Source: Microbulbifer salipaludis | Lineage (GTDB): Bacteria; Pseudomonadota; Gammaproteobacteria; Pseudomonadales; Cellvibrionaceae | Direction of reading: 5' to 3' | Length of the DNA: 64,000 bases | Assembly (NCBI RefSeq): GCF_017303155.1 | Contig: NZ_JAEKJR010000001.1 | Span: 930,001-994,000, forward strand | Shown: positions 6,156 to 60,737 of the stretch, piece after piece | How positions within the stretch are numbered: position 1 is the stretch's first letter | Layout: the number at the start of each line of letters is the position of its first letter | Notes under the pieces: model-generated | What the model saw: only the letters and a program-made list of their open reading frames with translations | Databases searched by the model: none | What the model was told of the DNA's origin: nothing | Translations under genes and position numbers: made by a program

Positions 6156-6259
6156 GAGTGCCGGGTATGGCTTTTTGAAAGCGTCAGCGGCAGGGACGCC
6201 GCTGACGCAGCGTACAGGGATGTATTCACCGCGGTTTCAAAAAGCCATACCCGGTGCTC
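6156..6259. repeat. Family-A palindromic element, copy 2 (diverged)
   Basis: About 104 bp with near-perfect 25-bp inverted ends (6156-6180 and 6235-6259). Inside is a perfect 11-bp stem, GCGTCAGCGGC with GCCGCTGACGC (6181-6191, 6198-6208), followed by GTACAGGGATGTATTCACCG, which matches the internal segment of copy 3. The outer arm sequence differs from copies 1 and 3 except for the GTGCCGGGT end. It occupies most of the hutC-hutI gap. Confidence 0.82.
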
Positions 6260-6360
6260 GACCGCCACAGAGCTAGAACAGCGCTCTTGTGGGTGAGAAA
6301 CCGCGCCAAAACGCCCCAACAGGGCTATCGTTACAATTAACGCCAATCCAGTGAGAAAAT

Positions 6361-8527: not shown

Positions 8528-8545
8528 GGCGAGAACGGGAAACCG

Positions 8546-9136: not shown

Positions 9137-9323
9137 GGGCCCGGAACTGCTTTCACTGCAAATGGGGGATTCCCTAAAGTGTATCTGAGGCTTGCCCCGG
9201 CTTTCGAGTACTCTTTTACCTGCGAGGATGACGATTCGCACCGAAATGGCACTATTCCGCGTGCCATGGGTCATACTCGGGGCCAGATAGTGCCCAAAAA
9301 CAACCATCTCACAAGGACTCGCC

Positions 9324-10652: not shown

Positions 10653-10663
10653 CGGTAGCAAGG

Positions 10664-11413: not shown

Positions 11414-11525
11414 GGGCATCACAAGCGACTTTTTCCGGTATCGTGCAATGCGTTGCACATCCATTAGTGGGCGGCTAAGGTGTTTCAGTCACCAAATAAT
11501 AAAAAAGAAAACGCCGAGGCTGCCC

Positions 11526-13331
11526 ATGTCTGCGTCCAATACCTCAGTACCCTCTGAAGGTTCCAGTTCCAGTTCCAGTTCCAGTTCCAGTTTCAATCCC
11601 AATCCCAACCCCAACCCCAACCCCAACCCCAACCCCAACCCCAAACCGAGCCGTTTGCGCATAGGCCGTCGCTATCGCGCCGGGCGACTCGCGGGGCCCT
11701 ACGATGCCATTGTCATCGGCTCCGGGATCGGAGGGCTGACAACGGCGGCCCTGCTGAGTGCCGCCGGAAAAAAAGTGCTGGTGCTTGAGCAGCACTACAC
11801 TGCGGGCGGTTTTACCCATGCCTACGATCGCAACGGTTACGAGTGGGATGTGGGGGTGCACTACATTGGCGATGTGGGTGGCCACCCCACCATGACGCGC
11901 AAGCTGTTCGATTTTATCTCCGGTGGCCACCTGCAGTGGGCCCCCATGGATAGCACCTACGACCGCATCTGCCTGGGTGACGAGCAGTACGATTTGGTGG
12001 CGGGCCGGGAGGCGTTTGTCGACGAACTCAGCCGGCGCTTTCCCGGCCAGCGGCCGGTGATCGAGGCATATCTGGAGCGAGTGATGGCGGTGGCCAGCGC
12101 CATGCCCCTGATCACGCTGGAGAAACTGTGCCCGCGCTGGTGCGCCCCCCTGTTCGGCCTGTACAAAAAGCTGCGCTGGCCGGACTACCTGCACAAGACG
12201 ACCTACGAAGTGCTACGAGAGCTGACGGATAACGAGACGTTGATCGCGGTGCTCACTGGCCAGTGGGGCGACAACGGCATGACGCCCAAAACCGGCAGTT
12301 TCATTATTCACGCACTGATCGCCAAGCACTACCTGTACGGGGGCTACTACCCGGTGGGTGGCGCCAGCAAGATGGCGGAAACCATTATTCCCCAGATCCA
12401 GAAAACCGGCGGTGAGGTATTTACCTACGCGCGGGTAGAAACCCTGTTGCTGGATGGGGCACGGGTAACCGGTGTGCGCATGGAGGATGGAACAGAAATC
12501 TTTGCACCGGCGGTCATCTCCAATGCGGGCGTATTTAACACGTTTGAAAAGCTGTTGCCGGAAAGTGCCGCCAGCGCCGCCGGCTATCCGCGCCAGCTGC
12601 AAACGGTGCAACCGTCAATGAGCCATTTGTGCCTGTATATCGGCCTGCGGAAAACCGCCGCAGAGCTCGGCTTGCCGAAGACCAATTACTGGCTGTACCC
12701 GAGCCCGGACTACCAGGCAGATACCGAGGCCTTCCTGCAGGACCCAGGGGCGGAGATTCCACTGGTGTACATTTCTTTTCCCTCTGCCAAAGACCCGGAG
12801 TTTGAAAACCGCTACCCCGGCCGCGCCACCATCGAAGTGGTGGCACCGGCACAATACGCCTGGTTCGAACGCTGGCAGGAGAAAACCTGGGGCAAGCGCG
12901 GCGCAGACTACGAGGCCCTGAAGCAGCAGTTCAGTGAGCGCTTGCTGGCGCACCTGTACCGGCATTTCTCGCAGTTGCGCGGGCAGATCGATTACTGCGA
13001 ACTCTCCACCCCGCTCTCCACGCGTCATTTCTGCGCATACACCCAGGGGGAAATCTACGGCCTCAACCACGACCCGGCCCGCTTTGCGCAGACCTGGTTG
13101 CGACCAAAGACGCGGGTGCCCGGCCTGTATCTCACCGGCCAGGACATCATGAGCTGTGGGGTCGCGGGCGCCATGTTTGCCGGGCTGGTGACCGCGCAAA
13201 GCCTGCTGGGATGGCGCCGGGGTGGGGCGTTGATGCGGCGGATTTTTAGCGGAAGTACAGCAGAAAATAACGGGGCTCAAAGCACGTCACCCCTGTCCAA
13301 GCTGGGCGCTGATCGTCTCCGGGCCCCCTGA
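11526..13331 (+). CDS. FAD oxidoreductase, retinol saturase / carotenoid isomerase family
   Basis: A 601-residue flavoprotein whose dinucleotide-binding site YDAIVIGSGIGGLTTAALLS (59-78) and following EQHYTAGGFTH place it in the phytoene desaturase / CrtISO / retinol saturase group. The C-terminal GLYLTGQDIMSCGVAGAMFA closes the FAD site. Such enzymes reduce, desaturate or isomerise polyene bonds; the substrate is unknown. The N-terminus before the FAD domain is low complexity: ten Ser (residues 13-22) then eight Asn-Pro repeats, encoded by perfect hexanucleotide repeats. The ATG at 11526 follows GAGG by about 8 bases; a longer start at 11448 lacks one. Confidence 0.88.
   Translation: MSASNTSVPSEGSSSSSSSSSSFNPNPNPNPNPNPNPNPKPSRLRIGRRYRAGRLAGPYDAIVIGSGIGGLTTAALLSAAGKKVLVLEQHYTAGGFTHAYDRNGYEWDVGVHYIGDVGGHPTMTRKLFDFISGGHLQWAPMDSTYDRICLGDEQYDLVAGREAFVDELSRRFPGQRPVIEAYLERVMAVASAMPLITLEKLCPRWCAPLFGLYKKLRWPDYLHKTTYEVLRELTDNETLIAVLTGQWGDNGMTPKTGSFIIHALIAKHYLYGGYYPVGGASKMAETIIPQIQKTGGEVFTYARVETLLLDGARVTGVRMEDGTEIFAPAVISNAGVFNTFEKLLPESAASAAGYPRQLQTVQPSMSHLCLYIGLRKTAAELGLPKTNYWLYPSPDYQADTEAFLQDPGAEIPLVYISFPSAKDPEFENRYPGRATIEVVAPAQYAWFERWQEKTWGKRGADYEALKQQFSERLLAHLYRHFSQLRGQIDYCELSTPLSTRHFCAYTQGEIYGLNHDPARFAQTWLRPKTRVPGLYLTGQDIMSCGVAGAMFAGLVTAQSLLGWRRGGALMRRIFSGSTAENNGAQSTSPLSKLGADRLRAP
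11562..11642 (+). repeat. Two in-frame hexanucleotide tandem repeats
   Basis: (TCCAGT)x5 at 11562-11591 encodes ten Ser; after one TTC codon, (AAYCCC)x8 at 11595-11642 encodes eight Asn-Pro pairs. Six of the eight second units are identical. Since the unit is six bases, slippage would change linker length without breaking the frame. Confidence 0.95.
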
Positions 13332-13450
13332 GCGGGTGCGGAATCGTCGGGTAGCGCCCAATTCTCGGGCAGGCTGACAAGGAGACTTGCTCAGAAAAAT
13401 GTGAACGGACAGCCATTTTCAGGGATTAGCGCGACAAAACTGCTGTTGAG

Positions 13451-13495
13451 CGTGCACAACTTGCACGATTGACCAATAATTGGCCATTGTATAGG
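13451..13495 (+). promoter_or_regulatory. Candidate promoter with palindromic operators for the TetR gene
   Basis: A 17-bp palindrome CGTGCACAACTTGCACG (13451-13467) is followed by TTGACC (13469-13474), the palindrome CCAATAATTGG (13473-13483) and TATAGG (13490-13495). The 15-base spacer is short for a sigma-70 promoter. The palindromes overlapping the hexamers suggest autorepression by the TetR protein encoded 55 bp downstream. Confidence 0.5.
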
Positions 13496-13549
13496 GTTTG
13501 GCATTCATTTCCCTCTGCACCCGCATAATTCCTGTTTGAGGCAATCGAC

Positions 13550-14239
13550 ATGGCAACCGGCTTCGACGCTGGCAAAATCACCCCCGAGGAGACAACTCGC
13601 AAGGCCTCTGCCACGAACAAGAAGGCCGAGAAACGCGAGATCGCCAAGGCCAAAATCCTCAACGCGACCCTGGACATCATTGCCAAAAAGGGTCTCGCCG
13701 CCCTGTCGCACCGCTCTATTGCCAGTGCCGCGGGCGTGCAGTTGGCGATGACCACCTATTACTTCGGCACCATCGACAACATTCTGGTGGCGGCATTCCG
13801 CGAGTTTGTTAAATCGATGGAGCCGGTGAACGCGGACCTGATCCGTCGCGGCGACGCGTTTTTGGCCCAACTGCAGGGTGCCGATGGCACCGTGAAAGAC
13901 TGTGAGCGCTACATTGAGGGCATCGCAGACATTTTCGCCCAGATGATCGACAGTGGCCTGTCTTCCCGGCGGGACCAGTTGCGCATTGAGAGTCAGTACC
14001 TGTTTGAGCAGCACCCCTCGGAAGCCCTCGCCGAGGAAATTCAGGCGTACAACGACTGGCTTGCGGATATCGCGCTGCGTTTTATCCGTCCCATCGGCGC
14101 ACAGGACCCAGAGCTGGATGCCCAGCTGTTCCTGTGGACCGTGCAATGCCTGGATTTTTCCAACGTTAGCAGTGTGCAGGTCAAGGGGCCGTCGAGCCGC
14201 GATGTCCTGCTGCGCCTGATGCGCGGCTTCTGCGTGTAA
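13550..14239 (+). CDS. TetR/AcrR family transcriptional regulator
   Basis: A 229-residue one-component regulator. The N-terminal helix-turn-helix is at about 25-75 (AKILNATLDIIAKKGLAALS, HRSIASAAGVQLAMTTYYFG), preceded by a Lys-rich tail; the remainder is a helical ligand domain without diagnostic residues. GAGGC precedes the ATG by about 10 bases. The upstream gap carries two palindromes overlapping a candidate promoter. The flavoprotein gene upstream on the same strand is a possible target, but this is inference. Confidence 0.9.
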   Translation: MATGFDAGKITPEETTRKASATNKKAEKREIAKAKILNATLDIIAKKGLAALSHRSIASAAGVQLAMTTYYFGTIDNILVAAFREFVKSMEPVNADLIRRGDAFLAQLQGADGTVKDCERYIEGIADIFAQMIDSGLSSRRDQLRIESQYLFEQHPSEALAEEIQAYNDWLADIALRFIRPIGAQDPELDAQLFLWTVQCLDFSNVSSVQVKGPSSRDVLLRLMRGFCV

Positions 14240-14328
14240 TCGCTCCGGGCTGGTATCCTTCCCACCTTTTCCATCGCCCTCTGGTCCCATCACCCTCTGG
14301 TCCCACTGGCCTGTACCGAGTTCGAGTT

Positions 14329-15000
14329 TTGCGTCCCTACTATCCACCCACCGACCCCTATCTGGATGTCGTCTACGCCGATACCCACCTGCTGGTACTG
14401 GACAAGCCCAGTGGCCTGCTGACGGTGCCGGGCCGCGCGCCGGAACATCAGGACAGCCTCGCCAGCCGGGCGCAGGCGGAATACCCTGACGCGCGCATTG
14501 TGCATCGTCTGGATATGGACACCTCGGGGCTGGTGGTGATGGCGCTGGGTGCGGACATGCACCGCCTGTTGAGTGGTCTGTTTCAGAATCGTCAGGTGGA
14601 AAAAAGCTATCTGGCGCGTGTTTGGGGTGAGCCGGAGCGGGATGAGGGTGAGGTGGACCTGCCGCTGATTTGCGACTGGCCGAATCGGCCGCGGCAAAAG
14701 GTGTGTTTCGACTCCGGCAAGCCGTCGCTGACCCGCTGGCAGAAACTCGACAGCGACGGCAGCACCAGCCTGCTGCAGCTGACCCCGGTCACCGGTCGCT
14801 CACACCAGCTGCGGGTACATATGCAGGCCATGGGCCACCCGATTCTGGGCGATCCCTTCTACGCGCATCCGCAAGCCCTGGCCGCGGCGCCGCGCTTGCT
14901 GCTGCACGCGCAGGCGCTGGGGTTTGAGCACCCGGTGCTGGAGAAAGAAATGCACTTTTTGTGCAATCCCGGTGACGGTTTTCTGGATTTCCCTCTCTAA
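14329..15000 (+). CDS. rluA: RluA-type rRNA/tRNA pseudouridine synthase
   Basis: Isomerises uridine to pseudouridine; E. coli RluA modifies U746 of 23S rRNA and U32 of several tRNAs. The 223-residue protein aligns with E. coli RluA from memory over most of its length: N-terminal YYPPTDPYLDVVY, LDKPSGLLTVPGR, the catalytic-Asp motif HRLDMDTSGL, LICDWPNRPRQKVC and TGRSHQLRVHMQAMGHPILG. There is no S4 domain, as expected for RluA. The start is a TTG at 14329 because the conserved N-terminus begins there and no ATG or GTG is nearby. A strong bidirectional terminator follows. Confidence 0.93.
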   Translation: MRPYYPPTDPYLDVVYADTHLLVLDKPSGLLTVPGRAPEHQDSLASRAQAEYPDARIVHRLDMDTSGLVVMALGADMHRLLSGLFQNRQVEKSYLARVWGEPERDEGEVDLPLICDWPNRPRQKVCFDSGKPSLTRWQKLDSDGSTSLLQLTPVTGRSHQLRVHMQAMGHPILGDPFYAHPQALAAAPRLLLHAQALGFEHPVLEKEMHFLCNPGDGFLDFPL

Positions 15001-15002
15001 CA

Positions 15003-15026
15003 TGGTGGATAAGCGCAGCGCATCCC
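15003..15026 (+). repeat. Single unit of the GGATAAGCGCAGCGCATCC family
   Basis: One partial unit of the repeat seen in pairs at 3215-3285 and 28100-28175, placed just after the rluA stop codon. Confidence 0.7.
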
Positions 15027-15031
15027 TCACG

Positions 15032-15061
15032 AAAATGGGCGGCCAGTGGCCGCCCATTTTT
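15032..15061. terminator. Bidirectional intrinsic terminator
   Basis: A perfect 13-bp stem AAAATGGGCGGCC / GGCCGCCCATTTT with a 3-base loop, T-rich on both outgoing strands. It separates convergent rluA and tex and can serve both. Confidence 0.9.
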
Positions 15062-15083
15062 GTTTCCGGGAAAGAAAAAACGC

Positions 15084-17438
15084 TTACTTCTTGCCCTTCA
15101 TGGCCGCCGCCAGCAGGTCGCCCATGCTGCCGCGACCACCGCCCGCGTTGCCACCGCCCTGTTGCTGGCGGTTGCGGTTGTTGTGGCGTTGCGCTTGTCT
15201 GCTCTCACGGTGGTCGCCTTTCTTGACGCCGCCGCTGCCCTGTTCGCCGGGCTCGTCAGACATGCGCATGGACAGACCGATACGCTTGCGCGCTACGTCC
15301 ACTTCCATCACCTTCACCTTGACGATGTCGTTCGCCTTCACCACTTCGTGCGGGTCCTTGACGAACTTTTCCGAGAGCGCGGAGATATGCACCAGGCCGT
15401 CCTGGTGCACGCCGATGTCCACGAAGGCGCCGAAGTTGGTGACGTTGGTGACGGTGCCTTCCAGCACCATGCCCGGGCGCAGATCCTTGATCTCTTCCAC
15501 ACCGTCTTCGAACTGGGCGGTACGGAACTCCGGGCGCGGGTCACGGCCGGGCTTTTCCAGTTCGGCAATGATGTCTTTCACCGTCGGCAGACCGAATTTT
15601 TCATCGGTGTAATCCGCCGGGTTCAGGCGGCGCAGGAAACCGGAGTCGCCGATCAGGCTGTTGATCTCGCGGCCGTTTTTCTCCGCGATACGCTTCACCA
15701 CGATGTAGGACTCCGGGTGTACCCCGGATTTGTCCAGCGGGTTCTCGCCGTTGTTGATACGCAGGAAGCCGGCGGCCTGTTCGAACGCCTTGGGCCCGAG
15801 GCGCGGCACTTCCTTCAATTGGTCGCGGCTCTTGAACGCGCCGTTCTGGTCGCGGTAGCTGATGATGTTGTTGGCGATCGACTGGCTGAGGCCGGACACG
15901 CGCGCCAGCAGCGGTGCCGAAGCGGAGTTCAGTTCGGCACCGACACCGTTCACACAGTCTTCCACCACCGCGTCGAGGGAACGCGCCAGCTGCGACTGGG
16001 ACACGTCGTGCTGATACTGGCCCACACCGATGGACTTGGGCTCGATCTTCACCAGTTCCGCCAGCGGGTCCTGCAGGCGGCGGGCGATAGAGATGGCGCC
16101 GCGGATGGTCACGTCCAGGTCGGGGAATTCGCGTGCGGCGAATTCGGAGGCGGAATACACGGAGGCACCGGCCTCGTTCACCATCACCTTCTGCGCGGTG
16201 AGCTTGAACTGCTTAATGGTCTCGCCCACGAACTTGTCGGTCTCGCGGCTGGCGGTGCCGTTGCCGATGGCAATCAGGCCCACATCGTACTTCTTGCACA
16301 GGGTGGCGATCACGGCAGCGGATTCCGCCAGCTTGTTCTGTGGCGGGTTGGGGTAGATGGCGGTGTGGTCCAGCACCTTGCCGGTGGCGTCGACCACGGC
16401 CACTTTTACCCCGGTACGCAGGCCCGGGTCGAGGCCGATGGTGGCCTTCTGGCCAGCGGGGGCGGAGAGCAGCAGGTCTTTCAGGTTGCGGGAGAACACC
16501 TTGATGGCTTCCTCTTCCGCCTTCTCGCGCAGCTGGCCCAGCAGGTCGGTTTCCAGGCTGGTGAGCAGCTTGATGCGCCAGGTCCAGCGCACCACTTCAC
16601 CCAGCCACTTGTCCGCGGGGCGGCCGTGGTCTTCGATGTCCACATGGCGGGCGATCATGGCCTCGCAGGGGTGGCTGGCAGTGGCCGGGCGCTCTTCGTC
16701 GCCGTCGAGCCCCAGGTTAATCGCCAGAATGCCCTCGTTGCGGCCGCGGAAGATGGCCAGGGCGCGGTGACTGGGCACCTTGGCCCAGTCTTCGGCGTAT
16801 TCAAAGTAGTCGCGAAACTTGGCCCCTTCCTCTTCCTTGCCGGCGAGTACCTTGGACTTCACCTGGCCATCGCGGCTGAGGAAATTGCGCAGCTTGCCCA
16901 GCAGCTCGGCGTCTTCGGCAAAGCGCTCCATCAGGATGAACTTGGCCCCGTCGAGGGCGGCCTTGATGTCTTTCACATGCAGGGCGGCGTCTTCGTTTTC
17001 CGTGTTGAGGTACTTCTGGGCTTCCTCTTCCGGGTTCAGGCTGGGGTCGGCGTAGAGAGCGTCGGCCAGAGGCTCCAACCCCGCCTCGATGGCGATCTGG
17101 CCCTTGGTGCGGCGCTTGGGTTTGTAGGGCAGGTAGAGATCTTCGAGGCGGTTCTTGGTGTCGGCCGCATTGATCTGCTGTGCCAGTTCCGGCGTAAGTT
17201 TGCCCTGCTCGTCGATGCTTTTCAGGATGGCGGCACGGCGCTCTTCCAATTCGCGCAGGTAGCGCAGGCGCTCTTCCAGGTTGCGCAGCTGGGTGTCGTC
17301 CAGCTCACCGGTTACTTCTTTCCGGTAGCGGGAGATGAAGGGCACCGTTGCGCCCTCGTCCAGCAGGCCTACGGCGGCAGCCACTTGCTGCGGGCGCACG
17401 TTCAGTTCTTCGGCAATACGGGCGTTGATATCCAACAT
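15084..17438 (-). CDS. tex: Tex-family RNA-binding transcription accessory protein
   Basis: A 784-residue cytoplasmic nucleic-acid-binding protein. The N-terminal Tex helical region includes [20 protein letters not shown]; the middle has the YqgF-like nuclease fold ([20 protein letters not shown]), then helix-hairpin-helix segments, and a C-terminal S1 domain (about 645-715, with [21 protein letters not shown]). The tail is Gly/Arg/Gln-rich, as in family members. Length is typical. It is single and convergent with rluA. Confidence 0.96.
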
Positions 17439-33062: not shown

Positions 33063-34085
33063 ATGCCCAATAATCCAATAAGACTCGCAATCAACGGTTA
33101 CGGCCGAATCGGGCGCTCAGTGTTAAGAGCCCTGTACGAATCTAACCTGCGCGATCAACTGCAGATCGTCGCCATCAATGAGCTGGCCGACTGCGCCACC
33201 ATCGCCCACCTGACCAAATACGATTCCGTCCACGGCCGCTTTCACGGCACCGTCGCCGTGCACGACCAAATGCTGCACATCAACGACGACAAAATCGCCG
33301 TTACCCATCATGAACAACTCGAAGATCTCGATTGGACCGATCCCCAAGTCGACATCGTGCTCGAATGCACCGGTAGTTTCACCGAGCGTGAACGCGCCGC
33401 GTTGCACTTAACGGCGGGTGCTGAAAAGGTAATTTTCTCGCAACCCGCCCAGAGTGACGTCGATGCCACCATCGTCTACGGCGTGAATGACACCGCGTTG
33501 ACTGGCAACGAAAAAATCATCTCCGCCGCCTCCTGTACCACCAACTGCAGCGTGCCCGTCATTGCCGCACTGGAAAAAGCCTTCGGTATCGAATCCGGCG
33601 TGATCACCACCATCCACTCCGCGATGAACGACCAGCCGGTGAATGATGCCTACCATCACACCGACCTGCGTAAAACCCGCTCCGCAATGAACTCCATCAT
33701 CCCGGTCGACACCGGCCTCGCCCGTGGTATCGAGCGGATACTCCCGGACATGGCCGGAAAATTTGAAGCGCAAGCCATGCGTGTGCCCACCGTGAATGTT
33801 TCCGCGATCGACCTCTCGGTACAACTGAAAAAAAATGTCACCCAGGCCGAAGTGAACAGCGTCCTCAAAACCGCCGCCGCCAATCAGTTTGCCGGCGTGC
33901 TCGGCTATACCGAAGAACCCTTAGCCTCCTGCGATTACAACCACGACCCCCGCTCCGGCATCGTCGATGCCAGCCAGACCCGTGTTGCCGGAGGCAAGCT
34001 GGTGAAAGTGCTTATCTGGTTTGATAACGAATGGGGCTTTGCCAATCGCATGCTAGACGTCACGCGCGCGTTGCAATCACAGTAG
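33063..34085 (+). CDS. epd: Erythrose-4-phosphate dehydrogenase
   Basis: NAD-dependent oxidation of erythrose-4-phosphate to 4-phosphoerythronate, feeding pyridoxal phosphate synthesis. The 340-residue protein has the GAPDH fold: Rossmann [18 protein letters not shown], catalytic Cys158 in [12 protein letters not shown], and [15 protein letters not shown]. The block [20 protein letters not shown] and [20 protein letters not shown] match Epd rather than GapA, as does its place after tkt. A side activity as GAPDH is possible. The next gene starts one base after the stop. Confidence 0.93.
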
Positions 34086-34086
34086 C

Positions 34087-34584
34087 GTGCAAGTTTTACT
34101 ACTGACCCACGAGCGCGAGCTGGAGCGCCCCAGTAACACGGGACAGCTTGCGCTGACCAGCGCCACTAGCGCCGTTGTTCACAGAATCGTATGGCAGCGC
34201 ACTGACCCAGATCCAGACTTGTTGTCCATCGTAAGCAGGGCTGACGTCGGCCTGGTGTATCCGGTTAGCGAGGTGCCCACGGAAAAATCTGTAGCACACC
34301 CCCTCTCCATTGAAGCCTGCAATATCTTTATTGTGTTGGATGCCACCTGGCAGGAGGCGCGCAAGATGTACAACCGCAGTGCCTACCTGCATGGCGTCGC
34401 CCGGGTTTCCATGGACAGTGCCCGGGCTTCCCGTTACGCGCTGCGCAGAAACCAGAAGCAGGGTGGCTTGTGTACGGCGGAATGTGTGGTGGAAATTCTG
34501 CGGCGGAAAGGTCAGCGCATTCTGGCCGCCGATCTTGAATCACGGTTTTTACAGTTCAATACACAGAACGGGCGTCCAATCTAA
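34087..34584 (+). CDS. DTW-domain protein, short TapT/YfiP-like form
   Basis: A 165-residue protein with the DTW motif as D85-A-T87-W88 in IVLDATWQEARKMYNRS, the signature of tRNA aminocarboxypropyltransferases that make acp3U at position 47 (TapT), and YALRRNQKQGGLCTAECVVEIL. It lacks the N-terminal Cys-rich zinc segment usual in YfiP, starting directly at the fold. The GTG start is one base after the epd stop, so translation is probably coupled. tRNA modification is inferred from the family; some short DTW proteins remain uncharacterised. Confidence 0.83.
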   Translation: MQVLLLTHERELERPSNTGQLALTSATSAVVHRIVWQRTDPDPDLLSIVSRADVGLVYPVSEVPTEKSVAHPLSIEACNIFIVLDATWQEARKMYNRSAYLHGVARVSMDSARASRYALRRNQKQGGLCTAECVVEILRRKGQRILAADLESRFLQFNTQNGRPI

Positions 34585-34781
34585 ATCCCTCTTTGCGCGA
34601 TAGCACAAGCCTGACTCATTCACGGGTAGTGGTCTTCACGCTTTTCTCCTTGCGCTTCCCCCTCGATCTATTTAGTCCCACGTTAACTGCAGGTTGATAG
34701 TGGGAAAACCCTTGCTGATACCAGTTGATAGATTGGAGAGACGCGTGATAGCGCGCGTGAAAATAATGAGGGAAAAAAACA

Positions 34782-36938
34782 ATGCAAAATAACAATAGCT
34801 ATAAAAAGTTGCTTCTCACCGTCGGCCTGACGGCCGCACTGCCGGCTTTCGGCCAGCAGTGCCAGTCGCCGACGCCGGTGTGGGAAGACAATTTCGACGG
34901 TACCACTTTGGACACCTCAAAGTGGGAGCCCATGATTGGCGATGGTTGTAGTTACGGTATCTGTGGCTGGGGCAATAGCGAGCTCCAGTACTACAAGGCC
35001 GAGAATGCCACCGTGGCCAACGGCATGCTCACCATTACTGCACGCAAGGAGCGGGTACAGAGCAAGGCTTACACGTCGGCACGCCTGCGCACCGCCAATA
35101 TGCCGAATGGTGGCGAGTGGACCAATGGGCGCTTCGAAGCCCGGGTCAAGGTACCGGACGGCACCGGCATGTGGTCGGCGTTCTGGATGCTGCCCACCGA
35201 TCCCGCCGAAGCCTGGCCGATCAGCGGTGAGATCGACATCCTGGAGTCTGTCGGGCAATCGGACGAGTATGTATTCGGCACACTGCATTACGGCGAGCTG
35301 TATCCCAACAACTCCTTTACCGGTAATCGACTGTTAATCCAGCCCGAGCCCTGGTCGGCGGGCTTCCATGTGTATGCACTGGAGTGGGAGCCCAACGAGA
35401 TGCGCTGGTATGTGGATGACCAGCTTTACGCCACCCTGACCCCCAATGACCTGACTGATGCCTCCTACTGGACGTTTGAAGATCACCGCTACCACTTTCT
35501 GTTGAACCTGGCAGTAGGCGGTAATCTCGGCGGGGTGGTGGATGACTCCATGCTCCCGCAGACCATGCAGGTCGACTATGTGCGGGTCTACGATCACGGT
35601 CAGCCCAGTATCACGGGTGATCGCATCGTGGATAACGGTGAAACCACCAGCTACTCGGTCGCCGGCGCCATTGGCGGCAACGCCAGCTACAGCTGGAGCA
35701 TTCCGGCCGATGCAACACTACTGTCGGGTGGCAACAGCGATACCGTCACCGTGCAGTGGGGCAGCGCTGGCGGCGACGTGAATGTCAGTGTCAGCGACAG
35801 CTGTGGCAGTCGCAATCTCAGTCTGCCGGTCCATGTGGGGCCCAAGCTGGTGCAGGAAACCGTGCTGGATGACTTCGAGTCCAACCGCACCCTGGCCTAC
35901 AACACCTTTGATGGCACCCTTGTGCAGGACGCAGTCAATCCGCAAGCGGATACCACCAATGGCTCATCCACTGTGGCCATGTACACGCGCTCTGCCGCTG
36001 CGCAGTACGACGTGATCATCGCCGGCACCAGCGCTGTTCCAGACGCGGATCCGTTCCTGTCAGGTGACAAGGCGTTCTATATGGATGTATTCACCACCGC
36101 CGCACCGGGCACGCAGATCCTGGTGCAGATGGAGGACAGCTCCAGTGCCACTGCCAGCAATTATCCCACCGGGCGCCACTCCAAGTACGCGGCACATGTG
36201 GGTGAGGGCAGCGATTGGCAGCGGCTTAAATTCGAGCTGGATGACCGGATCGACGGCGGCACCCCATCGACCGCGGTGGACAGCCTGGTAATTCTGTTCG
36301 ACCCCAACACACTCAATGGTGACACCTACTACTGGGACAACTTCAACATCTATGGCGTCGACAACGTTGGCAACCAAGCGCCGATGGCCAGTGCGACCCA
36401 TGGCTGTAGTGGACTGGAGTGCAGCTTTGATGCCAGCGCCAGCGCCGACAGCGATGGCACCATTGCCGGCTATCAATGGGATTTCGGTGATGGCGAGAGC
36501 GGCTCCGGAGTAACCGTCACTCATACCTACGCTGTCGCGGGCACCTATACCGCGACACTCACCGTTACCGACGATCAGGGAGCCAGTGACCAGGCCAGCT
36601 TTGAAGTGATCGCAAGTGATGCTGGGGAAGCGACCACTATGTACGTCTCCAGTGTAGTGACCGGTACCGCGTCTGCCGGCCGTGGACAGAAGTATGCTAC
36701 CGCCACCGTAACCGTGCTCGATGATCTCGGGCGTGGTGTGCCCGGGGTTTCCGTGACCGGTAACTTCAATGGCAGCATCAGCGAGAGTGGTGCCAGTGGA
36801 ACTACGGACAGCAATGGTATAGCCGTGGTGACCAGTGCAGCGAGCGCCGGCGGCAATGTGTCGGTGAGCTTCTGCGTGACAGACCTGAGCGGTGGACTGA
36901 GCCACGACACCGCCGCTAGCATAGGCCTGTGCCAGTAA
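34782..36938 (+). CDS. Secreted GH16 beta-glucanase with accessory domains
   Basis: A 718-residue exported enzyme likely to cut beta-1,3-glucans such as laminarin. After a signal peptide (1-24) comes a GH16 domain (about 30-272) with catalytic E150-I-D152-I-L-E155 and the start VWEDNFDG...LDTSKWEP typical of laminarinases. Then: a beta-sandwich segment (275-352), a jelly-roll/CBM-like segment (360-527), a PKD domain (531-611, YQWDFGDGESG) and a C-terminal Big1-like Ig domain (about 619-718). GAGGGA precedes the ATG. Laminarinase fits better than agarase or carrageenase because of the core motif, but activity is inferred. Confidence 0.9.
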   Translation: MQNNNSYKKLLLTVGLTAALPAFGQQCQSPTPVWEDNFDGTTLDTSKWEPMIGDGCSYGICGWGNSELQYYKAENATVANGMLTITARKERVQSKAYTSARLRTANMPNGGEWTNGRFEARVKVPDGTGMWSAFWMLPTDPAEAWPISGEIDILESVGQSDEYVFGTLHYGELYPNNSFTGNRLLIQPEPWSAGFHVYALEWEPNEMRWYVDDQLYATLTPNDLTDASYWTFEDHRYHFLLNLAVGGNLGGVVDDSMLPQTMQVDYVRVYDHGQPSITGDRIVDNGETTSYSVAGAIGGNASYSWSIPADATLLSGGNSDTVTVQWGSAGGDVNVSVSDSCGSRNLSLPVHVGPKLVQETVLDDFESNRTLAYNTFDGTLVQDAVNPQADTTNGSSTVAMYTRSAAAQYDVIIAGTSAVPDADPFLSGDKAFYMDVFTTAAPGTQILVQMEDSSSATASNYPTGRHSKYAAHVGEGSDWQRLKFELDDRIDGGTPSTAVDSLVILFDPNTLNGDTYYWDNFNIYGVDNVGNQAPMASATHGCSGLECSFDASASADSDGTIAGYQWDFGDGESGSGVTVTHTYAVAGTYTATLTVTDDQGASDQASFEVIASDAGEATTMYVSSVVTGTASAGRGQKYATATVTVLDDLGRGVPGVSVTGNFNGSISESGASGTTDSNGIAVVTSAASAGGNVSVSFCVTDLSGGLSHDTAASIGLCQ

Positions 36939-37208
36939 TCGGCAATGAGCGCGCGATCATATTCACGGCAGGCCCGTGACACCTGCTCCGAATTTATCGT
37001 CTGCGCTGTAATGGAGTGAGAGAGGCCTGCACCGGAAACGGTGCAGACCTCGCAGGTTTTGCCAAAGGATCCACGTACCCATGCACGGCACAAGTCAAAT
37101 AAGCTAATTGCCCGCCAATCGTGCCGCAGTTGGTACAAATGTATGGTTTTCGGCCGGCTTTTCACATAATCTCGACGGCTATTCCATCGCCGGGTTACAG
37201 GCTCTGTC
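36939..37208 (+). other. Intergenic region upstream of the TIR gene
   Basis: 270 bp with no coding pattern. CATAAT near 37168 could be a -10 element, but no matching -35 was found. It should contain the promoter of the 37209-41756 gene cluster. Confidence 0.35.
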
Positions 37209-39269
37209 ATGAGCAACAACAATAACTCCCAGCGTTACCGGGCCTTCATTAGTTACAGTCATACCAACGAGCAGGCGGCCAAATGGCTACAGCGTGCGTT
37301 GGAATCCTATCGCCTGCCCAAACACTTGGTAGGGCGGCAAACCGCCGCTGGGGTGCTGAAACCCCGGATCGGAAAGGTTTTTCGCGACCGAACCGATCTT
37401 TCATTGGCCCCCGATCTTTCCGAGGAATTGCAGGGCCGACTTGCCGCGAGCGACTACCTCATTGTTATTTGTTCACCGGCGGCCGCCAAATCACGCTGGG
37501 TAAATGAAGAGATACAGCAGTTTATCCGGATGCGCGCGCCCGACAGGGTGCTTGCACTGATCGCCGATGGTGAACCATTTGCCTCGTTCGCGGGACGCCC
37601 CGAAAAGGAATGTCTGCCCCCAGCCCTGCGCTTCCAGCTGAATCCAGATGGCTCGCTGTCCGACCACGCCGCGGAGCCCCTTGCCTCCGATATGCGCGCA
37701 AAGGGCGACGGCCCCCGCATGGCGCTGCTAAAAATTCTCGCATCCATTCTGGATCTTGGCCTGGATGAGTTGGTGCGCCGCGACCATCAGCGCCGTATGC
37801 GAGTGCAGCAGCTGATCTCTGCCACCGCGCTGGTTGCGGTGACCATTTTCGCCGGCCTGAGTTACCTGGCCATTTCTGCGCGCAATGTGGCGGAAGAGCG
37901 CCGGCTGGCAGCGGAAGACCTGGTCAACTTCATGCTGACCGACTTGCGTCAGCGGCTGGAGCCCATCGGGCGGCTGGATGCGCTGGATCTTGTTGGAGAG
38001 AAAGTGCTCGACTTTTACTCTCAGCAAAAAACGACGGTGTTGAATGCCGATGCACTGGGTAGGCAGGCCTCCGCCATGCATCTACTGGGCGAAATTCGTG
38101 ACTTGGCCGGCGATACGGATGCAGCGATTGCGCTCTTTTCACACGCCGCGCAGACCACCGAGGAGCTGCTGGCGCGGGAACCAGACAATGCACAGCGCGT
38201 CTTTGATCATGCGCAGAGCACTTTCTGGGTCGGCTATCCGGATTATCAGCGTGGGGAATACCAGCGCGCACAATACTGGTTCGATCAGTATCTGCGCCTC
38301 TCGCGCCGATTGGTTGAACTGGAGCCGAAAAAGAGCCGCTCGCAAACCGAGCTGTTTTACGCGCTGAATACCCAGGCGGTACTCAAGTATGCGGATCAAC
38401 AGTATGCGGAAAGCCTGGCATTGTTTGAGGAGGCTGGGGGCATTCTGCAAGCACTGCCGCCCAATGCAGAGAACCGGGAAGCGCTGATCAACAACACGGC
38501 CTGGATAGCTTCGGTAAATTTCATGCGTGGAGACTTTGATGCGGCGATCGCAGCGCGGCTGCACCAGCTTAACCTGATTGAACAATGGCGAGAGGAAGAG
38601 CCGGACCGGGCCAACCTCACCGACTATACGATGACCGCCGAGCATGAATTAACCCGCCTCTTCCAGATTACTGGGAATCATACACGCCTTCAGGCAATCA
38701 TTCATTCTGGTAAGGAAACCGCAGAAAAACTGATTCGCCAGGACCCCCAGAATCTGGATTACCGGTTGCGGGCTTATCAGTTTTACCTCACTGCAGCATT
38801 GAGCGGGTATGGTAAAAGCGCGGGGCCCGAATCCTTACTGATCGATGTTCGCAAGCTCGCCGCCGAGCGGCCAGAAAACCTGGATGCACAGATTTTACGC
38901 TGGACCGCTGAGCTGGGGCTGCATCTCAAAATGAGCGCGCCGAAAGGCTCGCTGGAGCTGCTTTCTGCTGCACAGGCTTTTGGACGTTGGGCGTCAGAAA
39001 AAAGTGCACCCGGTCAGCAAAAAAAAATCCAACATCTGGCCATGCTCGCAGACTTGATTTTAGCGCTTGACCCCGCGCTGGCGGAGCCAGAGCGCCAACA
39101 GCATGTGCGCAACAGCAAAAATGTTCTCGGCGCCAGCGCAAATCAATTGAAGTATGCGGTGCATTGCAATGAATCTCATCTGGACCCGCTGCTCAGTACC
39201 AGCTTGACTGATACGGATCCACTGATGTCGGTAGTCAGGCGCTGTTTTGGCCTGCAAAACACGCGGTAA
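37209..39269 (+). CDS. TIR-domain membrane protein with C-terminal TPR-like region
   Basis: A 686-residue protein. The N-terminal TIR domain (about 9-125) has YRAFISYSHTN, KVFRDRTDLSLAPDLSEEL, YLIVICSPAAAKSRWVNEEI; the W97-x-x-E100-E101 pattern matches where TIR NADases place the catalytic Glu. A transmembrane helix follows at about 202-222, then a helical region (230-680) with TPR-like repeats (for example GEYQRAQYWFDQYLRLSRRL). The TIR part would face the cytoplasm, the TPR part the periplasm. It begins a same-strand cluster of three genes; NAD cleavage, signalling or scaffold roles are all possible. Confidence 0.85.
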   Translation: MSNNNNSQRYRAFISYSHTNEQAAKWLQRALESYRLPKHLVGRQTAAGVLKPRIGKVFRDRTDLSLAPDLSEELQGRLAASDYLIVICSPAAAKSRWVNEEIQQFIRMRAPDRVLALIADGEPFASFAGRPEKECLPPALRFQLNPDGSLSDHAAEPLASDMRAKGDGPRMALLKILASILDLGLDELVRRDHQRRMRVQQLISATALVAVTIFAGLSYLAISARNVAEERRLAAEDLVNFMLTDLRQRLEPIGRLDALDLVGEKVLDFYSQQKTTVLNADALGRQASAMHLLGEIRDLAGDTDAAIALFSHAAQTTEELLAREPDNAQRVFDHAQSTFWVGYPDYQRGEYQRAQYWFDQYLRLSRRLVELEPKKSRSQTELFYALNTQAVLKYADQQYAESLALFEEAGGILQALPPNAENREALINNTAWIASVNFMRGDFDAAIAARLHQLNLIEQWREEEPDRANLTDYTMTAEHELTRLFQITGNHTRLQAIIHSGKETAEKLIRQDPQNLDYRLRAYQFYLTAALSGYGKSAGPESLLIDVRKLAAERPENLDAQILRWTAELGLHLKMSAPKGSLELLSAAQAFGRWASEKSAPGQQKKIQHLAMLADLILALDPALAEPERQQHVRNSKNVLGASANQLKYAVHCNESHLDPLLSTSLTDTDPLMSVVRRCFGLQNTR

Positions 39270-39313
39270 TTTTCCTATCGCGTTAACTAGTAAGATGTAT
39301 CAAGGAGAGATTC

Positions 39314-39766
39314 ATGAGTATCGATAACAAGTTTCGTATAAACATCTGCAGCGCACCTGATGGGAACGATGGGTGTGATGTGGTCTTTGTGGAAGACCCC
39401 CACGAGAAGCATCATTCCGCTTCGATCAATGGAGACGGCACCATCTCAATTACTAAGCCCAAAGGTGCGGCGGTAAAAATCGCGTTTCGCCTGCAGTCTG
39501 GTGTCTATGATGGTTATAAATTCAATCAGCAGACCTCGTTTTCTGCATCCAAAGTCGAGACCGGGGAAGTCGGAAACTTTGCCTGTGAACTCGGCGACTC
39601 TGATGATCCTGAACTTTCTGTGGCAAAGGTGAAGGACAGTTCACGTACCCTGGTGGTGATCGACAAGAATGATGATGGCAGTGACTGGCAGTACACACTC
39701 ACGATTTACAAGGACAATGCGGCGGTAATTCTGGATCCAATGATCAAAAACAATACCATGGCCTGA
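39314..39766 (+). CDS. 150-residue acidic protein of unknown function
   Basis: A soluble, acidic protein without signal peptide or membrane segment. The pattern of short strands and D/N/G turns (SINGDGTISITKPKGAAVKIAF, SRTLVVIDKNDDGSDWQYT) suggests a single beta-sandwich, possibly Ca-binding through the DKNDDGSDW loop, but this is inference. GGAGA precedes the ATG. It lies 44 bp after the TIR gene and 91 bp before the RyR gene, all on one strand. I do not recognise the family. Confidence 0.78.
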   Translation: MSIDNKFRINICSAPDGNDGCDVVFVEDPHEKHHSASINGDGTISITKPKGAAVKIAFRLQSGVYDGYKFNQQTSFSASKVETGEVGNFACELGDSDDPELSVAKVKDSSRTLVVIDKNDDGSDWQYTLTIYKDNAAVILDPMIKNNTMA

Positions 39767-39783
39767 TCGCCCGCGTTTGGGCC

Positions 39784-39814
39784 GCGTGACATAGGTTGCG
39801 AGCCGGTGTCACGC
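39784..39814 (+). other. Hairpin in the gap before the RyR gene
   Basis: GCGTGACA (39784-39791) pairs perfectly with TGTCACGC (39807-39814) around a 15-base loop, with partial extension of the stem. No T-run follows. It could adjust the downstream message level. Confidence 0.4.
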
Positions 39815-39857
39815 TGCCCGGGCCCCGATCGAATGACACTGTCAGGGTGGATTAGCT

Positions 39858-41756
39858 TTGGAAGAAAAATTGCGGCAGTCGCTTTACGCCTACTGGGGCT
39901 GGTTCAAAAGGAACGAGGCTCTATTTATTGCCGGCATGATCGCGGGGTTATTTTTTGCCGGCTATTGGGGATATTTGCAGGTTCTCCCGCGGGCCGGCAG
40001 TGACGATTCTGCTTTGCAGTGGGATGCGGTCTATAGTGCAATCAAGCTATTTATTTTTAACGGACCCGATGTGACGCAGGAGTGGCCGTTCATCCTGCAA
40101 GTGGTTCGTATCCTTGCCCCTTTTCTGCTTATCTATACCGCTGTGAAGACTCTGTGGCTGCGCGCAGGCGAGCACATTTCGCTATTTCTGCTGCGCTTTC
40201 GTTATCGGCGTTTTGTTGTGGTGTGCGGCATCGGCGAGACCGGCTATCGCCTTGCGTTGCAATATCTACAGTGCTCAAAAAAGCGCGTTGTGCTTATTGA
40301 TGATCGCCCTATGAATCCACTGGTCGCCAAGCTGAACATCATGGGTGCTATTGCCCTGATGGGCGATGCACTGGACGGTGCGACACTGGCGCGGGCGCGT
40401 GTGGCATCCGCCAGCGAAGTGTTCGTTTTCTCTGGTGATGATGAAAAAAATGTTGCGGTGGCGAAGGCGATTCACCGGGTCGTGCGAACAAAGTCATCGA
40501 GTGCCGAATCGACGGGCCATGTTGCTGCGGATCGCCCGCGACTTCGTTGCCATATTCAGGTGGATACCGGTGAAGTGGCTGAAATCTTTCAAGACCACTC
40601 CTTCTTTAATCTGATTGATGATCGTCTTGAATTGCGCATATTCAATCGGAATGTTTCCGTTGCGCGCAATATCATGGATAAGTGCGCGCCCGACCTCTAT
40701 TACCGGCCAGCTTCCGATCAGGACGAGCCGATGCATGTACTGTTCCTTGGCTTCGGGCCTCTGTCTCAAGCGCTGTTGATACAGTACGCCCTGACCGCGC
40801 ACTACGCCGACTTTCGCAAGCCGTCGGCGACCGTGCTGTGCGACGATCAATGTCGCCGTGCTGTGGATCGTTTTCGGCAGCGCTACACGCATATCGACGA
40901 AGTGCTTGATCTGACGTTCCGCTTTGTCGATCCGCAGACCCTCGACCCGCAAAGCTGGAAAGCGATGCTTGAACAGCAGCGATTCCAGCTGTGCTATACC
41001 GCTCTGGAACACGATGTTGACGGCATCCTTGCCGCGCGGCGCCTGAACCGTATGCGGAACACCATGGGCGTAGCGCCGATACACTTTGTCGTCTGCCTCA
41101 ATCAGCAGTCGTGGATTTCCGAAGTGGTTGATGACGATTTTCTGCCGATTGAGATGGATAAAACGGGCCTCGGCGCTGCCGTCCCGATAGAATATTTTGA
41201 GACCCTGGATGAGACCATCACGATTGATGTGGTGGTGAACGATCGCCTGGATCAGCTGGCGGTAGCCATTCATGAGCGCTATTTGCAGGGGCAAATCGAC
41301 GCGGGTACCAGTAGAGCGGATAACCCCTCCGTGGTGACCTGGCGCTACCTGCCGCTGTACAAGAAAGTGGCCAATCAGCGTGCCGCCGCACATCTGGATG
41401 TGAAGTTGCGCATTGCGCTCTGCCGCCGGGCGCAGGTGCAGGCACCATTGCCGCGGGCAAGCTTTCCCCCGAATAGTGAGCTTATGGAAGTTCTGGCAAA
41501 GGTGGAACACCAGCGCTGGTGTGCCGATAAGCGTTTGGCGGGGTACCGCTACGGTGCCGTGCGTGACGATGTACGCTTTCTTCACCCGGACCTGAAGCCG
41601 TGGGGTGCGCTAACCGAATCCGACCGGGAAAAAGACCGTGCACTGATCCGCGAAATCCCGGCATTGCTGGCGCTGATTGGCCAGAAGGTGGTCTCCGAAG
41701 TCGGCGTCGAAGTCGCGGCTCAGGGGGCTCTGGTCGAAGAAGAGGCGGGCCCCTGA
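39858..41756 (+). CDS. Channel-like 2TM protein with two Rossmann (TrkA-N/RCK) domains and C-terminal RyR domain
   Basis: A 632-residue protein. Two membrane helices (about 22-42 and 80-98) flank a stretch where a potassium channel would have its pore, but no TVGYG filter is present (IFNGPD instead). A first Rossmann domain follows (119-200, VVVCGIGETGYRLALQY), then a second (293-400, VLFLGFGPLSQALLIQY), like paired RCK domains. At 541-603 is a RyR (ryanodine receptor repeat) domain: VEHQRWCADKRLAGYRYG, HPDLKPWGALTESDREKDRA. The TTG start follows AGGGTGG by about 8 bases. Third gene after the TIR/TPR gene; NAD/nucleotide sensing is inferred. Confidence 0.85.
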   Translation: MEEKLRQSLYAYWGWFKRNEALFIAGMIAGLFFAGYWGYLQVLPRAGSDDSALQWDAVYSAIKLFIFNGPDVTQEWPFILQVVRILAPFLLIYTAVKTLWLRAGEHISLFLLRFRYRRFVVVCGIGETGYRLALQYLQCSKKRVVLIDDRPMNPLVAKLNIMGAIALMGDALDGATLARARVASASEVFVFSGDDEKNVAVAKAIHRVVRTKSSSAESTGHVAADRPRLRCHIQVDTGEVAEIFQDHSFFNLIDDRLELRIFNRNVSVARNIMDKCAPDLYYRPASDQDEPMHVLFLGFGPLSQALLIQYALTAHYADFRKPSATVLCDDQCRRAVDRFRQRYTHIDEVLDLTFRFVDPQTLDPQSWKAMLEQQRFQLCYTALEHDVDGILAARRLNRMRNTMGVAPIHFVVCLNQQSWISEVVDDDFLPIEMDKTGLGAAVPIEYFETLDETITIDVVVNDRLDQLAVAIHERYLQGQIDAGTSRADNPSVVTWRYLPLYKKVANQRAAAHLDVKLRIALCRRAQVQAPLPRASFPPNSELMEVLAKVEHQRWCADKRLAGYRYGAVRDDVRFLHPDLKPWGALTESDREKDRALIREIPALLALIGQKVVSEVGVEVAAQGALVEEEAGP

Positions 41757-41778
41757 GCCTACCGAAAACACGCGCGGG

Positions 41779-43095
41779 TTAGCTGCTTATGCCACAGGAG
41801 CCTACGCGATTTTTGTAAGGCTGTGAGTCCTGCAGGAAGGTCAGATAGTCCGCGCGAAAGCTGGCACAGGAGCTGGTCGCATCATCGGAGGTGGCACAGC
41901 AGCGGATGGTTTCGCGCAGCGCGCGCTCCGAGGCTGCGTCGAATGCCTGTGAGTGTCCGGCACCGTACATGATGCTGTCGCTCCAGGATTTCGCCGGGCG
42001 CCAAGAGTTGTTGCCGTAGGCCCCGCCATAGAAGCATCCTGTGCCCTGCAGGCAGTCCTGGCCGATGTCCTCGGTGCCCCATGCTGGGGTGCACTGCCCG
42101 CCAAAGTAGTCGTCTTCGGTGTCTTCCGACCAACCGCAGCAGGTGTAATTGCCTTCGTCGTCGGTTTCACATTCGCCTTCCGCGGAACGATTGAAGCTGG
42201 TGCAGCTCGCCTTGTCGGTAAGGGTTGGGCAGGTTGCATTGGCGGACTGGGTGTACTCGGAAGCGGGTTTGAAGCTGTTACACCATTTGGCGCAGCCGGG
42301 CCCGTCCAGATTGGCCCACGCACGGGACAGTTCACTGGGCCAGCCGGTGACCGCCGTGCCATCGGCGTTGACCCCGCCATCGTACAGGTCCGCGAGTCCG
42401 AAGTTATGGCCTACCTCGTGGATGACAATGTTGCGCAGCTGATGCAGGGCGGTGCCACTGTCCTGCCAGTCGCGGTCGCTGGCTACATAGATAATCTCGC
42501 CCCCGCTAGCGCCGTAATCCCCTTCCGCGATGACCACCTTCATTACACCGTGGATATCATTACTGCCGCATTGCTGCAGAATGGCTGAATGTATCTGATC
42601 GATGTCGCAGTAAAACCCGCCCCCGGAATTACGGCTACAGCCCAGGGAGGCAAAGCCCTGCAGATCAATCTGATAAAAGGCAAACTGCCCCGAATACTCG
42701 GAAAATGGTGGCAGCCCCTGAAACTGGTTTTCCACGGCATCCTGCACAATCTGGTCGAAGTACGGTGCCCCGTCGAGGTTGGCAAACAGCACCTTGAGGG
42801 GGGCCTCACTATTGCCGGCGAAGGGAAGGCAGCGCTCCAGTGTGGCGTAGTTTCCGGCCGCGACATCTTCGCTCTCCGGGCTTTGTTGGGTTGAATCCCC
42901 GTCGGAGGTGGAGGGTGTGCTGCCGGAGGAATCCGAACTGTCGCCCGGCGCGTAAGAAGGAGGCGTCGGGTTCAGTTCTGTGTCATCCGATGCCTCCGTT
43001 CCTCCGCCGCCACCGCAGGCGGTAAGCGCCATCAGCAGGCTGAACACAAAGAGGATGCGCAGGGCACGATACGGATATGTGAAGAGAGCTGGCAT
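41779..43095 (-). CDS. Cys-rich lipoprotein, putative zinc metalloprotease
   Basis: A 438-residue surface or periplasmic lipoprotein: lipobox LTAC with Cys27, then a Gly run and a Ser/Asp/Pro-rich linker to about residue 80. The globular part has H227-E-V-G-H231-N-F-G-L-A-D237, a zinc-protease motif of the HExxHxxGxxD metzincin-like form, and many Cys likely in disulfides. Proteolysis is inferred from the motif; I do not place it in a named peptidase family. It converges on the RyR gene with a 22-bp gap and no terminator. Confidence 0.8.
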   Translation of the reverse strand: MPALFTYPYRALRILFVFSLLMALTACGGGGGTEASDDTELNPTPPSYAPGDSSDSSGSTPSTSDGDSTQQSPESEDVAAGNYATLERCLPFAGNSEAPLKVLFANLDGAPYFDQIVQDAVENQFQGLPPFSEYSGQFAFYQIDLQGFASLGCSRNSGGGFYCDIDQIHSAILQQCGSNDIHGVMKVVIAEGDYGASGGEIIYVASDRDWQDSGTALHQLRNIVIHEVGHNFGLADLYDGGVNADGTAVTGWPSELSRAWANLDGPGCAKWCNSFKPASEYTQSANATCPTLTDKASCTSFNRSAEGECETDDEGNYTCCGWSEDTEDDYFGGQCTPAWGTEDIGQDCLQGTGCFYGGAYGNNSWRPAKSWSDSIMYGAGHSQAFDAASERALRETIRCCATSDDATSSCASFRADYLTFLQDSQPYKNRVGSCGISS

Positions 43096-59503: not shown

Positions 59504-59573
59504 CCGCGCCCGCTTTCTCCCGGTAGCAGATCGGGTGAATGAGTATTCAGCAACCAGCAAATGAGGATTGGCT

Positions 59574-60737
59574 ATGGCGGTTAAATTGATGAAGGACCAG
59601 GATCTGGCGGGTAAGCGTGTACTGATCCGTGAAGACCTGAACGTGCCGGTAAAAGACGGTGCAGTTACCTCCGATGCGCGTATTCGCGCGGCACTTCCCA
59701 CCATCAAGGCCGCCTCCGATGCCGGAGCCAAAGTCCTGCTGATGTCCCACCTGGGGCGCCCCACCGAAGGCGAATACGCCGAAGAATTCTCCCTGGCTCC
59801 GGTTGCCGCCCACCTGGGCAAGCTGCTGGGCAAGGATGTGCCGGTCATCAAAGACTGGCAGAACGGCGTGGAACTTGCAGACGGTGACGTGGCCCTGCTG
59901 GAAAACGTTCGCTTCAACAAGGGCGAGAAAAAAGACGATGAGGCGCTGGCCAAGCAGTACGCCAGCCTGTGCGACATCTTCGTGATGGACGCCTTCGGCA
60001 CTGCGCACCGCGCCCAGGCGTCTACCCACGGCGTGGCCAAATTCGCGCCGGTTGCCTGCGCTGGCCCGCTGCTGGCCGCGGAGCTGGATGCCCTGGAGAA
60101 AGCCCTGGCCGAGCCCGCGCGCCCCATGGTAGCCATCGTTGGCGGCTCCAAGGTGTCGACCAAACTGACGGTGCTTGAGAGCCTGTCAGACAAGGTAGAC
60201 CAGCTAATTGTGGGTGGCGGTATTGCCAACACCTTCCTCGCGGCAGCGGGCAAGCCGGTGGGTAAATCCCTGTGTGAGCACGACCTGCTCGATACCGCCA
60301 AGGGCCTGATGCAGAAATGCGATATCCCCCTGCCCAGCGATGTGGTCACCGGCAAGGCGTTCAGTGAGTCCGCAGCGGCGGAAACCAAAGCCGCTGACGC
60401 GGTTGCCGAAGACGACATGATTTTCGATATCGGCCCGGATTCGTCTGCGGCGCTGGCGGAAATCCTGAAGAGCGCCAAGACCATTATCTGGAATGGCCCG
60501 GTGGGTGTGTTTGAATTTGATCAGTTCGGTGGCGGCACCGAGCGCCTGTCCAGGGCAATTGCCGATAGTGACGCTTTCTCCATCGCTGGCGGTGGTGACA
60601 CCCTGGCGGCCGTGGACAAGTACGGCATTGCCGAGCAGGTTTCCTATATTTCTACTGGGGGTGGTGCTTTCCTCGAGTACGTGGAAGGCAAAGTACTGCC
60701 GGCGGTCGCCATGCTGGAAAGCCGCGCCAACGACTAA
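59574..60737 (+). CDS. pgk: Phosphoglycerate kinase
   Basis: Transfers phosphate between 1,3-bisphosphoglycerate and ADP in glycolysis. The 387-residue protein starts [11 protein letters not shown] and shows the signature [27 protein letters not shown], and [10 protein letters not shown]; near the C-terminus [10 protein letters not shown] and [10 protein letters not shown] complete the nucleotide site. GAGGA 5-9 bases before ATG 59574 decides against TTG 59568. It is normally next to epd, but here about 25 kb away. Confidence 0.98.

Follow-up and report, generated by a model that had tools for sequence, protein, structure and literature searches.

Three consecutive genes in a window of 64,000 nucleotides of Microbulbifer salipaludis (NCBI RefSeq assembly GCF_017303155.1, contig NZ_JAEKJR010000001.1, positions 930,001 to 994,000), the whole stretch of DNA analysed here, encode a TIR protein with one transmembrane (TM) helix and a TPR-like tail (gene 1), a small acidic protein (gene 2) and a channel-like protein ending in an RyR domain (gene 3; Table 1). 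We judge the chances to be even that this locus constitutes a Thoeris-type circuit in which a TIR-made signal acts on a new, RyR-gated channel-like receptor or effector. What the analysis shows directly are domain architectures, conserved residues, the predicted folds of the products of genes 2 and 3, gene linkage, partner swapping and patchy insertion. A narrower version, in which gene 3 encodes a bacterial cyclic ADP-ribose (cADPR)-gated RyR-domain ion channel that is fired by the neighbouring TIR protein and is an immune effector swappable with TPR-S, is possible, though we would sooner doubt than assume it.

A preliminary description of this DNA had proposed an undescribed NAD- or nucleotide-linked defence or signalling system with the RCK/RyR protein as the sensor. 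That TIR and RyR proteins form an NAD/ADP-ribose-linked pair is supported by their co-occurrence and adjacency, by partner swapping and by a preprint of 2026 on RyR domains. The claim of novelty was too broad, as systems of this kind are partly known from Thoeris and TPR-S logic, and the RyR domain is likelier to grip the signal than the RCK domains alone.

RyR and TIR genes co-occur and are linked

Among 390 genomes of the order, the RyR protein was found in 6 and a TIR/TPR protein in 13, with both present in 5 (Fisher p = 1.0e-7; p = 2.6e-6 without the genome of the window). Likewise, 58 relatives included three RyR genomes, one being the window's own, and five with a TIR/TPR relative; all three RyR genomes had both. 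Thirteen close RyR loci were obtained by merging the loci of a non-exhaustive pattern scan of a species-genome collection (34 stretches, 10 RyR relatives or loci) with genome-search hits. At seven of these, namely in the window, Q7, YPW16, M. hydrolyticus, NOR5-3, Kineobactrum and Ww294, a full TIR/TPR gene of either subfamily lay no further than 5 kb from the RyR gene. At an eighth, KW1-S15_72, a 40-residue remnant of a TIR N-terminus directly followed the RyR gene (L010:2772-2891). Three genomes (NKW57, Haliea Biocath and H. pacificus) carried a TIR/TPR relative elsewhere, unlinked to RyR, and two had none; RyR genes devoid of a TIR counterpart, a case raised in the preliminary description, are thus the minority. 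The three RyR proteins encoded beside a subfamily I TIR gene fell together in the tree (support 99/99), next to the protein of NKW57 (81/82), whose genome has an unlinked subfamily I TIR gene and small-protein gene.

The RyR-domain protein

Two Pfam families exceeded their cut-offs in gene 3, TrkA_N (6e-12) and RyR (1.5e-11), the latter profile (PF02026) scoring 44.8 bits against a cut-off of 27.4. The structure model, which is not an experimental structure, starts with TM1, a short helix in the place of a pore helix and TM2, followed by two Rossmann domains as in an RCK gating ring, and its fold resembles CASTOR/DMI1, GsuK, TrkA and residues 848-1055 of RyR3. Pfam and model thus agree with the earlier view of a protein with two TM helices (2TM), two Rossmann domains and an RyR domain that lacks a TVGYG motif. 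The RyR domain contains a ligand tetrad of H551, W554, H576 and D593 whose spacing (+3/+25/+42) is exactly that of RyDEP. This tetrad was complete in 103 of 104 gene 3 homologues and in six of eight distant RyR proteins, L086 being without the Asp and L085 without the motif.

According to the available part of a recent preprint (PMC13232231, bioRxiv, May 2026), phage proteins with an RyR domain either cleave 2'cADPR and 3'cADPR or sequester them, and RyDEP grips cADPR via H75, W78, H100 and D117. Six of eight phage RyDEP homologues are described there as binding 2'/3'cADPR, RyDEP alone degrading the signal. For GsuK, the accessible portion of a further study reports activation by NAD+ and ADP (PMC3510474). 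We presume that the gene 3 product is both the signal receptor and the membrane effector.

The TIR protein

Gene 1 matched TIR_2 (6e-12) and ThsB_TIR (7e-9; PF08937, 36.4 bits against a cut-off of 21.2) over the Pfam cut-offs, which bears out the TIR domain and, together with a clear TM helix, the architecture proposed earlier. The TPR-like tail was strong in the relative L126, whereas in gene 1 itself it stayed below the cut-off (TPR_12, 8e-5). Within the formerly noted W97-E100-E101 motif, Glu101 was kept in all 21 aligned TIR/TPR proteins, whereas E100 varied; the alignment omits the L010 remnant, two G199 hits, G046 and G352. The position of E101, four residues after W97, fits WVxxE, a pattern of TIR domains that cleave NAD. 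Judged from sequence, the TIR domain does have a candidate catalytic glutamate, E101, and gene 1 presumably encodes an NAD-consuming signal maker.

The small protein

The gene 2 product, formerly a 150-residue unknown, has a predicted beta-sandwich structure with a fold like that of peptidase SO1698, and its C-terminus (D141-P142-x-I-x-N146) shows the DPxIxN motif also present in SO1698. By fold prediction and motif it is a DP-EP/SO1698-like protein that travels with the TPR tail: among the genomes of the order, a DP-type small gene follows the TIR-TM-TPR gene in all 11 examined members of the window's subfamily. A strict pattern revealed no DP gene beside TIR genes devoid of the subfamily I tail (L135, L136, L139-L144) or beside further proteins whose TPR stretch is related (L145-L148, L154, L156, L158, L159). 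The PF08985 profile matched neither the gene 2 product nor anything in the window's genome; the homologue P0116 bears a precomputed PF08985 annotation and gave no match in the local Pfam run.

Genes of the wHTH-nSTAND1-TPR type each adjoined a DP-EP type small gene as well (L087, L088, L089, L149, L151-L153). It was the DP-EP search itself that led to L087-L089, which the TIR/TPR search lists as well; one L087 copy begins with a signal-peptide-like stretch (by eye).

The third slot in other lineages

In a phylum sample, a TPR-S gene follows at eight of 11 TIR-TM-TPR loci, seven times after a DP-type gene and at L137 after an unrelated 224-residue gene. PF20308 ("Tetratricopeptide Repeats-Sensor") was over the cut-off in all five proteins tested, one of which has a guanylate cyclase domain; five of the loci found with the TPR-S profile had also served to build it, and these five were confirmed by Pfam. 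At L130, L132 and L134 (also L135, L136 and L068) the call is by profile alone, and L150 enters no count. TPR-S proteins are reportedly predicted by Burroughs and Aravind (2020) to read NAD+-derived signals. The window gave no hit to the TPR-S profile, its third slot being taken by the RyR protein.

RyR proteins are rare in the phylum (8 of 398 genomes). Outside the window's lineage, five of seven RyR loci adjoin conflict-type genes: a caspase and a TIR-nSTAND gene at L081, an nSTAND-FGE gene at L082, and patatin at L083 and L086 (Pfam) and L084 (by eye).

Relation to known systems

With Thoeris the locus shares a TIR enzyme with a conserved Glu, a ThsB_TIR match and a separate receptor/effector gene; unlike Thoeris, its TIR protein is membrane-anchored with a TPR tail, a small DP protein lies in between, and the receptor is an RyR domain on a 2TM-RCK-RCK body. 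Thoeris receptors or effectors comprise SLOG-type ThsA, TM-macro and caspase proteins, a list that may be incomplete; no SLOG, macro or caspase receptor domain was detected in genes 2 and 3 with Pfam, PADLOC and NCBIfam. The TIR/TPR-S conflict systems, said to have been predicted by Burroughs and Aravind in 2020, contain a homologous TIR-TM-TPR gene and small DP protein followed by a presumed nucleotide-signal sensor, for which the window has an RyR-channel protein instead of TPR-S (PF20308). GsuK, MthK and CASTOR-DMI1 have the modelled 2TM start and gating-ring Rossmann domains in common with gene 3, which unlike them lacks TVGYG and carries a C-terminal RyR. The phage RyDEP and RyR sponges, as far as the preprint is available (PMC13232231), have the same RyR/R12 domain and ligand tetrad; the RyR of the window is, in contrast, encoded by the host in fusion with a membrane gating-ring protein and located beside a TIR gene, as for a receptor rather than an anti-defence protein. 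Gene 2 resembles SO1698/DP-EP (PF08985) in model fold and C-terminus and differs in lying below Pfam detection and in residues discussed below. As one defining feature each of Thoeris, K+ channels and DP-EP was looked for and was lacking, the locus is classified as Thoeris-like and not as a member of any of them.

Weighing the circuit against other explanations

Several observations weigh against the proposed circuit. As to linkage, no TIR gene lies within 10 kb at five of the 13 close RyR loci. Two of the 13 genomes, those of L006 and L008, are without a TIR/TPR relative: Haliea Ww140 has only a TIR gene of another kind (TIR-AAA-TPR) and P. sediminis none, and L008's has zero TIR_2 hits. L010 has the remnant alone; some of the RyR genomes without TIR are incomplete metagenome-assembled genomes. 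The RyR protein of H. pacificus does not group with the window's despite the unlinked subfamily I TIR gene there. These gaps, and the GsuK-like fold of the model, would suit a stand-alone membrane protein of marine gammaproteobacteria gated by NAD(H) or adenine nucleotides, the TIR genes being passengers of shared variable sites. We consider this unlikely: co-occurrence and adjacency are far above expectation, genes of two TIR subfamilies replace each other beside RyR, and RyR proteins of other lineages adjoin conflict-type genes too.

As to the ligand, the four residues of the RyR domain are a general trait of PF02026, shared by animal RyRs whose ligands are adenine nucleotides, and the tetrad therefore permits cADPR binding by gene 3 without proving it; in the available preprint text, two of eight phage RyR homologues tested failed to bind (PMC13232231). 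The dyad H551/D593, which corresponds to the catalytic H75/D117 of RyDEP, could also break down the signal, so that the RyR protein might be an off-switch that hydrolyses or sequesters the TIR product, like phage RyDEP, and guards its own cell. Such a role appears improbable to us. The sole enzyme in the part of the preprint at hand is RyDEP, the other tested homologues leaving the signal intact (PMC13232231); the 2TM and gating-ring part would be unneeded; and M. hydrolyticus has a TIR and small-protein pair without linked RyR, though with an RyR gene at a second locus.

Further points against the circuit concern the remaining features. A TVGYG-type K+ filter is absent from gene 3, where the loop reads LFIFNGPD, and ion conduction is therefore uncertain; a filter-like pattern within the first 130 residues was found in one of 104 homologues. 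PADLOC gave weak TIR hits alone for gene 1 and none for genes 2 and 3. Residues D37 and K98 of SO1698, which we assume to have a role in that protein, are not kept in gene 2 and align with T43 and Q126; D37 is likewise not kept in three aligned PF08985 matches. Finally, the same circuit might serve envelope stress or self/non-self signalling instead of phage defence, with a predicted extracytoplasmic TPR tail reporting on the envelope, as would be suggested by the secreted-looking neighbours of subfamily II and by 19 of 21 TIR/TPR proteins, which carry more positive charge before the TM helix than after it; we give this a low probability, because the topology prediction is weak (two of 21 opposite), no signal peptide was seen by eye in gene 2, and patchy distribution and insertion at a variable site suit defence better.

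Gene organisation and insertion site

The three open reading frames lie on one strand with gaps of 44 bp and 91 bp, exactly as first described. Shine-Dalgarno-like stretches were seen by eye ahead of gene 2 (AAGGAGAG) and gene 3 (AGGGTGG), no terminator-like site was found in either gap, and a putative shared transcript is plausible.

Table 1. Features of the M. salipaludis window (positions within the window).
Feature	Position	Strand	Description
epd	33063-34085		flank of the block, named by eye
GH16-PKD protein	34782-36938		between DTW and the TIR gene
Gene 1	37209..39269	+	686 aa; TIR (about 1-150), single TM (hydrophobic stretch 202-220, the clearest TM helix), TPR-like tail
Gene 2	39314..39766	+	150 aa, acidic
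Gene 3	39858..41756	+	632 aa, TTG start; 2TM-RCK-RCK-RyR(R12)
RyR domain (PF02026)	41478..41690	+	inside gene 3; positions 971478-971690 of the contig
Variable insertion site	33063-43095		epd-DTW to metalloprotease-like gene
pgk	59568-60737		flank of the block, named by eye

The block separates epd from pgk, as noted before. Comparison with L166 and L167 identified the variable insertion site of the genus: tkt-epd-DTW recurs on one side and a metalloprotease-like gene with peroxiredoxin on the other, and in G025 and G027 DTW directly adjoins the metalloprotease-like gene, which represents the empty site. M. hydrolyticus has TIR and small-protein genes without an RyR gene at its epd-DTW site. 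The three-gene block is a variable insertion, and the RyR gene is separable from the TIR pair. It is patchily spread, with three of 37 genus genomes including the window's own; the best named relative of gene 2 is from Microbulbifer sp. Q7 (85%). Plasmid and phage records gave no match to the RyR protein, and no relatives were found in viral contigs with the RyR or TIR alignments.

Among neighbouring genes, the GH16-PKD gene lies downstream of the TIR pair in M. hydrolyticus. The unlinked TIR pair of H. pacificus has a patatin neighbour, and Kineobactrum shows the order RyR-TIR-patatin. A secreted-looking family accompanies subfamily II TIR/TPR and RyR genes (L009:5500-7383, L011:8261-9928, L053:5732-7780, L059:6083-7822, L067:5472-6914); its two members tested (L009, L011) had no Pfam match. 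Near the TIR/TPR genes of L060, L066 and L067 lies a SLOG-like protein of about 600 residues (VAVTGHRDL, by eye), of which the one tested (L066) matched no Pfam family over the cut-off.

Distant RyR proteins occur in further settings: a RelA/SpoT-TPR-RyR fusion (L080:7041-9563); a short protein by ssb- and integrase-like genes (by eye; L085:8234-9175), perhaps a prophage-borne sponge; and TM-RCK-RyR proteins by patatin and a SLOG/SLATT-like gene (L083, L084, L086; SLATT_3 below the cut-off in L086, the others by eye), possibly a separate RyR-patatin system. At L055 (G321:C2:224000-243000, 4446-15786), a distant RyR protein without visible 2TM lies between two TIR genes together with MlaE-type permease, ATPase, MlaD-like (below the cut-off) and lipoprotein-like genes, possibly an RyR-controlled lipid transporter.

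Proposed mechanism and significance

For the Thoeris-type circuit, we infer the signal chemistry, receptor role, conduction and antiphage defence as follows. The TPR tail and the small DP-EP-like protein would sense a trigger, probably a phage or damage to the envelope. The membrane-anchored TIR protein would then make an ADP-ribose signal, cyclic or linear, from NAD+ via E101, as its family and the invariant residue suggest, and the RyR domain, given its residue identity with RyDEP, may bind this signal with H551, W554, H576 and D593. The RCK gating ring would open or deform the 2TM channel-like part, and with the loss of ion balance growth of the cell would halt.

Such a circuit would give the RyR domain a receptor role in the host, at a time when phage RyR proteins are shown, in the preprint text available, to destroy the signals of Thoeris or soak them up (PMC13232231). 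In bacteria it connects RyR domains with the gating of membranes, and whether cADPR is read by R12 domains could be tested directly in a small protein. The orphan DP-EP-like small-protein family gains a candidate role, linked to TPR tails in TIR as well as STAND proteins. If the proposal is true, bacteria would possess, as an immune effector, the logic leading from cADPR to an RyR channel that has long been under debate for animals, and a marine bacterium would use the counterpart of an animal signalling pathway as an immune-type alarm.

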